Positions 40,236 to 46,936 of a stretch of 64,000 nucleotides of DNA are shown here, piece by piece. The stretch lies in NCBI GenBank assembly GCA_030535455.1, contig JAUNJY010000014.1:1-64000 (forward strand), read 5' to 3'. The DNA comes from a bacterium (GTDB lineage Bacteria > Bacillota > Clostridia > Lachnospirales > Lachnospiraceae). Numbering within the stretch: position 1 is the stretch's first letter; each line of letters starts with the position of its first letter. A program made the position numbers and the translations under genes. Under the pieces are notes generated by a model that saw only the letters and a program-made list of their open reading frames with translations, was not told the origin of the DNA and did not search any database.

Positions 40236-40280
40236 AAGTGTATGTGTAATCAATTAACGAATTATGCATACACTTTTTTT
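40236..40280 (+). terminator. Terminator of ppaC
   Basis: AAGTGTATG (40236-40244) pairs with CATACACTT (40267-40275), followed by T. The first copy of the duplicated hairpin element begins immediately after it. Confidence 0.85.
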
Positions 40281-40476
40281 AAGGGGTGGGAAGTTTTCTT
40301 CCCACCCCTTAAAAAAACACCCTTTGAAAAACAAGAGTGAATGCGCACTCGCTTTAGCAGAAGGGATCACTGTCGTGACAGCGCTCGGCGCAGACAGAAA
40401 GCAACAAGTGCTTTCTGAACTACACGCTTTGTGGGATCAGGGAAGTTTTCTTCCCACCCCTTAAAAAAACACCCTT
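40281..40476. repeat. Duplicated-hairpin intergenic element A
   Basis: A perfect 13-base stem AAGGGGTGGGAAG/CTTCCCACCCCTT (40281-40310, loop TTTT) starts the element. A 37-base segment from 40288 to 40324 recurs exactly at 40440-40476. Between the copies lie further hairpins: GAGTG/CACTC (40335-40350), CTGTC/GACAG (40370-40381), GCGC-TCG-GCGC (40381-40391), and CAGAAAGCA/TGCTTTCTG (40395-40417). The insert is visibly richer in G and C than its surroundings. A 66-codon frame across it starts at 40264 without a ribosome site, and I do not accept it as a gene. Confidence 0.75.
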
Positions 40477-43806: not shown

Positions 43807-45105
43807 ATGGAGCAATATATTATAAAAGGTGGAAAACCATTAGTTGGCGAAGTAACGATCGGTGGCGCTAAAAACGCAGCATTAGGTATTTTAGCAGCTG
43901 CAATTATGTCCGATGAAACTGTAACAATTGATAACTTACCAGACGTAAGTGATATCAATATTCTTTTAGAAGCACTTGAAGGAATTGGTGCAAAGGTAGA
44001 ACGTGTAAATGCTCATATGGCTAAGATTAACGGTAGCGGAATCCAAACATGCAGCATTGACTACGATTTTATTCGTAAAATCCGTGCATCTTACTATTTA
44101 TTAGGTGCATTACTTGGAAAATATAGATCTGCTCAAGTAGCTTTACCAGGCGGATGTAACATTGGTAGCAGACCAATTGACCAACATATCAAAGGTTTCG
44201 AAGCATTAGGTGCTGAAGTTAAGATTCATGGTGGTATGATTGATGCTAAGGCTGAAAACTTATTAGGAAGCCATATTTATCTTGATTGTGCAAGTGTTGG
44301 AGCAACAATTAACATTATGTTAGCAGCTTCTCTTGCAGATGGTAAGACTATTATTGAAAATACAGCGAAAGAGCCTCATGTAGTAGATGTTGCGAACTTC
44401 TTAAACTCTATGGGTGCTGATATCAAAGGCGCTGGTACAGACATTATCCGTATTAATGGTGTTAAGAAGCTTCATGGCTGTGAATACTCTATTATTCCAG
44501 ATCAAATTGAAGCAGGTACCTTTATGATTGCTGCAGCAGCAACAAAAGGTGATATTTTAATCAAAGATGTTATTCCAAAACATTTAGAAGCAATTACAGC
44601 TAAGTTAGAAGAAATCGGTGCAACAGTTGAAGAATTCGATGATGCAGTTCGTGTAGTAGCTACAAAACGTCTTGGACATACTCATGTTAAGACTTTAACT
44701 TACCCAGGTTTCCCAACAGATATGCAACCACAGATTACGACTTTATTAGCTCTTTCTATGGGAACTAGTATTGTAACTGAAAGCATCTTTGAAAACCGTT
44801 TCAAATATGTGGACGAGCTTGCTCGTATGGGTGCAAACGTTAAAGTGGAAGGTAATAGTGCTATTATCGATGGCGTACAAGGATTTACAGGCGCTGTTGT
44901 AAGTGCTCCAGACTTACGTGCTGGTGCAGCAATCGTAGTTGCTGGTTTAGCAGCTGAAGGCATTACAATTGTTGATTCTATCGGATATATCGAACGTGGA
45001 TATGAAGGGTTTGAAAGAAAATTACAAGCATTAGGTGCTGTAATGGAAAAACTCGATGACGAAGATGAAAAAGCAATTCGTAAATTTAAATTAAAAGTTA
45101 GCTAA
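43807..45105 (+). CDS. murA: UDP-N-acetylglucosamine 1-carboxyvinyltransferase
   Basis: This 432-residue enzyme commits UDP-GlcNAc to peptidoglycan synthesis using PEP. The lysine of GGAKNAAL (about residue 22), the catalytic cysteine in LPGGCNIGSRP (about 118) and the aspartate in YPGFPTDMQ (about 305) are all present, so fosfomycin sensitivity by this residue is expected. A ribosome site AGAGGTG precedes the ATG. murG lies 6 kb downstream on the other strand. It is convergent with metK, with a hairpin-rich element between them. Confidence 0.96.
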   Translation: MEQYIIKGGKPLVGEVTIGGAKNAALGILAAAIMSDETVTIDNLPDVSDINILLEALEGIGAKVERVNAHMAKINGSGIQTCSIDYDFIRKIRASYYLLGALLGKYRSAQVALPGGCNIGSRPIDQHIKGFEALGAEVKIHGGMIDAKAENLLGSHIYLDCASVGATINIMLAASLADGKTIIENTAKEPHVVDVANFLNSMGADIKGAGTDIIRINGVKKLHGCEYSIIPDQIEAGTFMIAAAATKGDILIKDVIPKHLEAITAKLEEIGATVEEFDDAVRVVATKRLGHTHVKTLTYPGFPTDMQPQITTLLALSMGTSIVTESIFENRFKYVDELARMGANVKVEGNSAIIDGVQGFTGAVVSAPDLRAGAAIVVAGLAAEGITIVDSIGYIERGYEGFERKLQALGAVMEKLDDEDEKAIRKFKLKVS

Positions 45106-45139
45106 TTAATAGAATATTCTATCAATAGCTTCGTATAAA

Positions 45140-45443
45140 AAACAAGCCCTACCTTAATTGGTAGGGCTTGTTTCAGACTGTAGACAAATGAAATCTTACA
45201 TTCACTCCAGCGCATTGCTTAGAGGAAAGTTTGAAAACCGTAGGTTTTCATTAAAATCAATATCCGGAAACCGCGCTTTTCGGATATTGGATTAGTGCGA
45301 ATAGGTCCTGTTTTAGAAGGACTTGCACGAGTGAGCACTAATCGTTTCCTTCGGCACTGGATGAAAGCCTGATTTCATCCAAAGCTTGTCGACTTTGTCG
45401 ACAAGCTGAAACAAGCCCTACCTTAATTGGTAGGGCTTGTTTT
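45140..45443. repeat. Duplicated-hairpin intergenic element B
   Basis: A 34-base perfect hairpin, AAACAAGCCCTACC/GGTAGGGCTTGTTT around TTAATT, occurs at 45140-45173 and again, identical, at 45409-45442. Between them is a chain of perfect stems: TGAAAACC/GGTTTTCA (45232-45250), CAATATCCG/CGGATATTG (45258-45289), GATTAGTGC/GCACTAATC (45290-45343, with GTCCT/AGGAC inside), GGATGAAA/TTTCATCC (45359-45380) and AGCTTGTCGAC/GTCGACAAGCT (45383-45407). It lies between convergent murA and metK, where only one terminator is needed. Confidence 0.8.
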
Positions 45444-45510
45444 GGTGTATATAACTATTGGTGTTAAAGAAGATAAGTATCTTTTTATAACCTATAAAAG
45501 CACCAGCCTC

Positions 45511-46716
45511 TTAGCAAGTAGCGGAAACTTCTTTGTAAGCTGCTAACTCAGAAGCTTTGTCTGTCTTTTCCCATGGTAAGTCTAAATCATGTCTGCCAAA
45601 GTGGCCATAAGCTGCTGTTTGTTTGTAGATTGGTCTTCTAAGGTCTAACATTTGGATGATGCCTGCTGGACGAAGATCAAAATGTTTACGAACGATTTCA
45701 ACTAATTTTTCATCGCTTAAAGTGCTTGTTCCAAATGTTTCAACATTGATAGAAGTTGGAGCAGCAACACCGATTGCATAGCTTAATTGAACTTCACATT
45801 TGTCAGCAAGACCGGCAGCAACGATATTTTTAGCTACGTAACGAGCTGCATAAGCTGCACTACGGTCAACTTTCGTACAGTCTTTACCAGAGAAAGCACC
45901 ACCGCCGTGACGAGCATATCCACCGTATGTGTCTACGATGATCTTACGTCCTGTAAGACCGCTATCGCCGTTTGGTCCACCGATTACAAAACGACCAGTT
46001 GGATTGATGTAGAATTTAGTATTTTCATCTACTAATTCAGCAGGAAGAACTTCGTTGAATACATATTTCTTAATGTCTTCATGAATTTGTTCCTGGCTGA
46101 TTTCAGCACTGTGTTGTGTAGAAAGAACAACAGCATTTAAGTGAATTGGTTTGCCGTTTTCATCATATTCTACAGTTACCTGTGCTTTACCATCTGGACG
46201 AAGGTAAGCAAGTGTGCCGTCTTTTCTTACATCAGATAATCTCTTAGTTAATTTATGAGCTAAAGAAATTGGGTATGGCATAAGTTCTTCTGTTTCATTA
46301 CTTGAATAACCAAACATCATACCTTGGTCACCTGCACCAATTGCTTCGATTTGTTCATCAGTTAATTCATTGTTTCTTGCTTCAAGTGCTTTATCAACAC
46401 CCATAGCGATATCGGCAGACTGTTTGTCTAATGCTACGATAACACCGCATGTGTTGGCATCGAAGCCTTTATCAGAATGGTCATAGCCGATTTCTGTAAT
46501 CGTCTCACGAACAATTTTTTGAATATCGATTTGAGCTTTAGTAGTAACCTCACCCATTACTAAAACTAAACCAGTTGTAATAGCTGTTTCACAAGCTACA
46601 CGACTCATTGGATCTTGTGCCATGATGGCATCAAGTACTGCATCAGAAATCTGATCACAGATTTTGTCTGGATGTCCTTCCGTAACAGATTCGGACGTAA
46701 ATAAAAATTTTTCCAT
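45511..46716 (-). CDS. metK: S-adenosylmethionine synthetase
   Basis: This 401-residue enzyme makes SAM from methionine and ATP. It has [14 protein letters not shown] (about residues 14-27), [11 protein letters not shown] (about 115) and the P-loop-like GGGAFSGKD (about 270). I start it at the ATG at 46716, after AAGGAGG; a longer in-frame ATG at 46806 lies inside the riboswitch terminator. It is controlled by the SAM-I riboswitch upstream. Confidence 0.97.
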
Positions 46717-46790
46717 AAAATCCTCCTTTGAGATATTAAATTTATTTGGTGAACGAATTGACTTGAAATCGGTATGTTCTGCTTTCGGGT

Positions 46791-46819
46791 AAAAAAATAA
46801 GTCCATCTAAGATGGACTT
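46791..46819 (-). terminator. Riboswitch-controlled terminator upstream of metK
   Basis: On the minus strand AAGTCCATC-TTA-GATGGACTT is followed by a T run (seen as AAAAAAA at 46791-46797). It is the expression platform of the SAM-I riboswitch. Confidence 0.9.
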
Positions 46820-46839
46820 GAACATTTATATATCAAATC

Positions 46840-46936
46840 ATCTTATTGTTCGATTACTCGCTCAGATTGGCACCTTCCTTAACGGGGTTGCCGTGGTTTC
46901 GTTGAGCCTTTACTCTCCACCACTCCAAATAAGATA
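46840..46936 (-). promoter_or_regulatory. SAM-I (S-box) riboswitch
   Basis: On the minus strand P1 is ATCTTATT with AATAAGAT (46929-46936 and 46840-46847). Between them are the S-box blocks GGAGTGGTGGAGAG, ACCACGGCAACC, AAGGTGCCAATC and the terminal GAACAATAAG. With SAM bound, the terminator at 46791-46819 forms and metK is turned off. Confidence 0.96.

Follow-up and report, generated by a model that had tools for sequence, protein, structure and literature searches.

The window analysed here, a 64,000-nucleotide stretch of a Lachnospiraceae contig (JAUNJY010000014.1), contains two convergent open reading frames (ORFs), named murA and metK as in the initial annotation, and the gap between them holds a series of hairpins (Table 1). 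The initial annotation had noted a duplicated 34-base hairpin in this gap, and this observation was borne out: the two copies form an exact direct repeat, and each consists of a 14-bp perfect stem with a 6-nt loop. The further stems it had described between the copies were likewise recovered as five inverted repeats, which measure, in order from 45232 to 45407, 8 bp, 16-nt arms (88% complementary), 9 bp, 9 bp and 11 bp. No ORF of at least 60 aa was found inside the 235 bp that separate the hairpin copies. The same annotation had spoken of a terminator at this site; a scan of 45060–45520 for T-tracts (at least five T in eight bases) returned zero terminators, and thus “terminator-like” is the safe wording there.

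Two other features of the window lie outside this gap. The Rfam scan located an ordinary SAM riboswitch upstream of metK (46840–46935, minus strand), and at 40269–40476 a 56-nt stretch bearing an A/T-flanked terminator-like hairpin occurs twice (84%), about 96 bases apart. The latter repeat, which is possibly the “Element A” of the initial annotation, has no dispersed copies in its own genome.

Table 1 Features of the murA–metK locus, in window coordinates
Feature	Position	Strand	Remarks
murA ORF, 432 aa, convergent gene upstream	43807..45105	+	ORF; name from the initial annotation
Host hairpin, left copy (murA–metK terminator-like palindrome; target duplication)	45140..45173	.	Exact repeat; single copy at the G001 orthologous site
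235-bp non-autonomous mobile element (MITE), very probably IS1182-type	45174..45408	+	At least 40 strong own-genome matches; relatives in G001 and G003
Left terminal inverted repeat (TIR) CAGACTGTAGACAAA	45174..45188	+	12/15 letters common to right end
Interior hairpin 1, 8 bp, covarying	45232..45250	.	Alignment pairs 60–67/71–78
Interior hairpin 2, covarying	45258..45289	.	Alignment pairs 87–99/106–118
Interior hairpin 3, covarying, nested stem 45302–45325	45290..45343	.	Alignment pairs 119–138/147–172
Interior hairpin 4, 9 bp, nearly invariant	45358..45381	.	Alignment pairs 192–199/206–213
Right-end subterminal hairpin, 11 bp	45383..45407	.	Alignment pairs 217–226/230–239
Right terminal inverted repeat (TIR) CAGCTTGTCGACAAA	45394..45408	-	
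Host hairpin, right copy (target duplication)	45409..45442	.	Exact repeat
metK ORF, 431 aa, convergent gene downstream	45511..46806	-	ORF; name from the initial annotation

Dispersed copies and empty sites

Besides the window's own genome (G000), the analysis covered three congeners (G001, which is the closest relative, G002 and G003) and a genome from another family of the same order (G046). We found at least 40 strong matches to the 235-bp insert in G000, where 40 of the 111 candidates were scored and the copy number is thus a minimum, while relatives of the insert reached 86–90% identity in G001 and 70–75% in G003 (12 candidates scored per genome). The similarity to G046 is limited to the final 37 bases of one end (86%), and the elements native to that genome have a different interior and a hairpin duplication of the same kind. 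Alignment of the flanks at 40 loci showed that intact copies start with CAGACTGTAGAC and finish with GTCGACAAGCTG, and that the flanking hairpin differs from site to site, being present on the left and mostly repeated on the right. Shorter derivatives of 45–187 bp also occur in G000, the smallest of which (L073, positions 203–247, contig C60) is a 45-bp element that amounts to barely more than the two ends. Chains of elements were seen in the same alignment at L003, L008 and L028. A separate stretch resembling GAAGAGAAGTTTCCTATCAATAAAAAA recurs beside host hairpins in the flanks of L013, L035, L077, L080 and L081, and is possibly another dispersed repeat of G000.

Comparison of the murA–metK gap in close relatives, which the initial annotation had suggested as a way to find an empty site, gave such a site in G001, where one hairpin and no element is present. 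The G001 gap aligns to the window minus the element and one hairpin, and its hairpin differs from that of the window at one stem base and five loop bases. For two further G000 sites (L016 and L024) the orthologous G001 sites also lack the element and carry a single diverged hairpin each, so that all three of the orthologous sites examined in G001 are empty. In G003, where about 1.3 kb separate murA from metK, one hairpin precedes metK and the element has no match; the G002 locus stops short of the gap. With its 235 bp, multiple copies, lack of a transposase gene, TIRs, target duplication and empty sites, the element is a miniature inverted-repeat transposable element (MITE).

Geometry of the duplicated hairpins at MITE and IS1182 loci

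To describe the duplication, 72 TIR pairs with 60 nt of flank were compared without gaps and with the ends fixed by the terminal repeats; these pairs include recombinants and a few chance end pairings (364 bp in L024; 67 and 275 bp in L061). A direct repeat of 17–38 bp was present at the exact ends in 55 of the 72 (26/35 in G000, 6/11 in G001, 18/21 in G003 and 5/5 in G046); this figure is the one without boundary shift, and allowing a shift of up to 2 gave 58 of 73. When the empty site was rebuilt, the palindrome axis fell within 0.5 nt of the repeat midpoint in 52 of the 55, for which random placement within 10 nt would give 6%. The duplicated segment begins with A in 53/55 and ends with T in 48/55, in 46/52 the cut lies 1–4 bp further out than the first G:C pair in the stem, and the duplication length correlates with the length of the G:C-bounded stem (r 0.73). 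Inverted repeats often run on for up to 16 bp past the duplicated segment, and this, together with the A preference at the cut, implies that sequence contributes alongside structure. Among the 17 pairs without a duplication in the ungapped test, a few have hairpins with small indels on both sides and three look like chance end pairings; others sit between two unlike hairpins or beside one hairpin only, which we read as products of recombination, deletion or misassembly.

A candidate for the mover was found in G002, where the C-terminus of an IS1182 transposase lies directly inside the same TIR, adjoining a hairpin (PF13751, 114.7 bits). The 187-aa fragment scored 171.6 bits with NF033551 over model positions 352–488, and the insertion sequence (IS) is represented by a single end on its contig. 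A complete IS1182 of 1511 bp is present in G046 between two hairpin copies, and its 475-aa transposase scored 417 bits against the NF033551 cut-off of 270, which was passed by all six full-length proteins tried (394–471 bits). The motif CAG..TGT.GACAA is common to the ends of the MITE and to the G002 IS end (L100/L118), and the corresponding end of the G046 IS (L119) is CAGTCTGTCAA; the similarity between MITE and IS is confined to about 15 bp of the ends. At this G046 locus (L119, 1361–2950) the order is hairpin, IS1182, hairpin and then a second element end 2 bases after the second hairpin copy; the duplicated hairpin had apparently been reused as a target. Copied hairpins can serve as targets again, giving chains such as those at L119 and at the three MITE loci named above.

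In the assembled G000 and G001 there were zero PF13751 matches each, and the mover in G000 is for this reason deduced from contig ends. In G000 the contig ends cut off two sequences that come after the same terminal repeat; one of the two matches the G002 IS end at 43–45 of 50 letters, and contigs C20 and C57 stop at a single common terminator. These matches and the shared terminator suggest that a multi-copy IS1182 is likely present and unassembled in G000. The complete, MITE-rich genome of G003 has one PF13751 match, an interrupted gene that is not enclosed by MITE ends; it adjoins a MITE end from the outside (L120, 1468–2853). Elements of the IS1634/IS4 type are known for long variable direct repeats, and a mover of that type was considered and rejected, as PF01609 had zero matches in G000 and NF033559 reached at best 29 bits against a cut-off of 100.

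Beyond the genus, we retrieved at least 444 relatives of the G046 transposase in genome contigs and kept the best 80, which are not a random sample and include the query's own element (L124). These best 80 span Clostridia, Bacillus relatives, Enterococcus, Exiguobacterium, Selenomonadales and one Chloroflexota genome. Nineteen loci were dropped before counting (9 lacking a TIR pair, 10 having less than 45 nt of flank), and 51 of the 61 testable loci among these best 80 of at least 444 relatives, in 39 of 46 genomes, carry an exact hairpin duplication, 20–42 bp long and centred on the palindrome in 48 of the 51. Left and right flanks taken from different IS1182 loci served as decoys and matched in 0 of 3660 cases. 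Within the same best 80, six loci lie on complete chromosomes (five in Cytobacillus oceanisediminis and one in Enterococcus mundtii) and all six have the repeat, so the pattern is not merely an assembly effect. The duplication length correlates weakly with the G:C-bounded stem in the IS1182 set (r 0.22, versus 0.73 for the MITEs). Ten of the 61 loci lack a duplication in the ungapped test, and several of these have unlike hairpins on their two sides, an arrangement expected from recombination between copies or from a chimeric assembly. The elements observed between two unlike hairpins are the MITEs at L062, L059 and L044 and the IS1182 copies at L126, L130, L150 and L172, and the same two processes are their likely origin.

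Insertion at terminator hairpins

The initial annotation had raised the idea that the insert is a palindromic mobile element whose terminator target becomes duplicated, and this is supported by our data: the insert has dispersed copies, its duplicated hairpins vary from site to site, the empty sites hold one hairpin, and the element shares its ends and its exact hairpin duplication with IS1182 elements. We regard it as very probable that 45174–45408 is a MITE moved in trans by a DDE transposase of the IS1182 family, with duplication of the whole terminator hairpin. In the mechanism that we propose, each strand of an intrinsic-terminator palindrome has one 5′ foot, and the transposase would join the element ends to these two feet; gap repair would then copy the entire hairpin, so that the target duplication would be the terminator itself and its length would track the hairpin. 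The duplication left by a DDE transposase is normally constant in length, and a fixed joining spacing would give a single value; the variable lengths centred on the axis fit joining at both 5′ feet of a palindrome that has been extruded, after which the gaps would be filled. We infer that the transposase recognises its target in extruded form, as a cruciform or hairpin, instead of as linear DNA, that IS1182 acts on the MITE in trans, and that the terminator retained on each side makes the insertions tolerable.

An exact 34-bp repeat could by itself originate locally, through chance or slippage duplication of a single terminator with no mobile element involved. The initial annotation had tied this explanation to an insert that has no version in relatives and no covariation; relatives exist, the interior stems covary, and the dispersed copies at differing hairpins together with the G001 empty site already refute a local event, to which we assign a next to negligible probability. 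A stem-loop replacement of the kind published for IS1272, followed by recombination instead of duplication at insertion, has in its favour that the transposase belongs to the same family (PMC5678879, PMC4923244). Replacement would lose the hairpin and leave no duplication, whereas palindromic repeats lie at the exact ends of 55/72 MITE pairs and of 51/61 IS loci (best 80 of at least 444), with 0/3660 in the decoys, and we rejected it as very improbable. Duplication of the hairpin at insertion is the reading that we retain, and the duplications of 17–42 bp centred on the target palindrome make structure-guided (cruciform) target choice directly testable.

A further explanation, which the initial annotation had raised as a multi-hairpin RNA, concerns what the insert is for: it may primarily be a structured RNA (a small RNA or 3′-UTR module) that was spread by the IS1182 machinery and retained for its RNA function. 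The region 45130–45450 folds to −143.3 kcal/mol against a dinucleotide-shuffle mean of −76.8, part of this energy being supplied by the two flanking hairpins, and both strands fold equally well (z −12.7 for plus and −13.9 for minus), which does not favour a transcript of one strand. Double compensatory changes were found at 21 of 54 predicted pairs (59 copies, three species); the underlying events are fewer than the cells since there are few lineage splits, and the covariation may stem from these few splits or from palindrome-templated mutation. Pair cells total 185 G:T against 13 A:C, in favour of this explanation, but the excess rests on three fixed columns, and elsewhere the cells number 27 against 12, with 13 columns having any G:T and 13 any A:C. 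The long-range pair ATGAAATC/GATTTCAT that the initial annotation took as a sign of one folded unit is present in the sequence, yet it is lost in the G003 copies, and RNAalifold gives local hairpins in its place.

The placement of the copies relative to genes, with gene directions read off roughly called open frames (300 nt or longer), also bears on this explanation. Of the 40 tandem sites, 30 have a gene reading into the right end of the element and 10 have one reading into the left end (p 0.002), while IS1182 copies have no orientation bias (16 vs 14), and at 66 of 67 MITE sites at least one flanking gene points into the element. The bias comes mainly from G000 (20:4), compared with 3:1 in G001 and an unclear 7:5 in G003, and in the commoner orientation the neighbouring gene does not read the strand that the G:T count favours. 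No promoter-like site was found, and a known RNA family was rejected because nothing over the insert reached an Rfam gathering score (weak matches, with E up to 10, fell below it). An RNA function of the interior is possible but unproven, and we consider RNA as the primary nature of the insert unlikely. In its fullest form, in which a structure-measuring transposase has carried a covarying RNA module of several hairpins to the 3′ ends of genes, where this module acts as a repeated 3′-UTR or small-RNA cassette between two copies of each gene's terminator, the proposal is equally doubtful; if it were true, target duplication would be measured by DNA structure (the hairpin arm) and not by a fixed protein spacing.

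Relation to known elements

The nearest known systems are IS1272 and TnSha1 of staphylococci, which belong to the IS1182 family and target inverted repeats or terminator hairpins of varied sequence and length (PMC5678879, PMC4923244). Wan and co-workers showed in 2017 that IS1272 replaces the stem-loop, and target duplication appears in their scheme only as a hypothetical alternative (Fig. 13, pathway b; PMC5678879), while deletion of the hairpin is reported for IS1272/TnSha1 (Furi and co-workers, PMC4923244). These insertions delete or replace the hairpin with no target duplication, whereas here the whole hairpin is duplicated. Some members of the family are reported to target palindromes (PMC5678879). 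The other IS1182-family elements in the loci studied here resemble the present one in their ends, CAGNCTGTNGANAAA, and in an NF033551 transposase. For the family as a whole, ISfinder lists direct repeats of 0–60 bp. For the Paracoccus member ISPse1, unlike the elements described here, the listed target duplication is 4 bp (PMC3281130), so the IS1182 family is not uniform.

Two further groups share individual traits with the element. Bacterial MITEs of the ERIC type are short, gene-free, multi-copy, intergenic and folded and have compensatory changes, all of which apply here, whereas the terminator hairpin as target and duplication is a feature of the present MITE. Group IIC introns also insert next to intrinsic terminators; they are not known to make a target duplication, in which they differ from the element, and the Rfam scan of the window gave no group II intron family. 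The IS1182 family and its preference for hairpins are thus known, and in the open-access literature we found no statement that the duplication is the terminator hairpin, nor a comparable IS1182 MITE; duplication as a rule and the structured MITE were not found described there.

A terminator on both sides of the insert is a plausible route to a transposon that is harmless for its host, and genes can keep their terminator: of the 66 MITE sites with at least one gene pointing in, 22 lie between convergent genes. In genome sequences, the duplicated hairpin also offers a simple rule by which IS1182 elements of this type, and their MITEs, can be delimited exactly.
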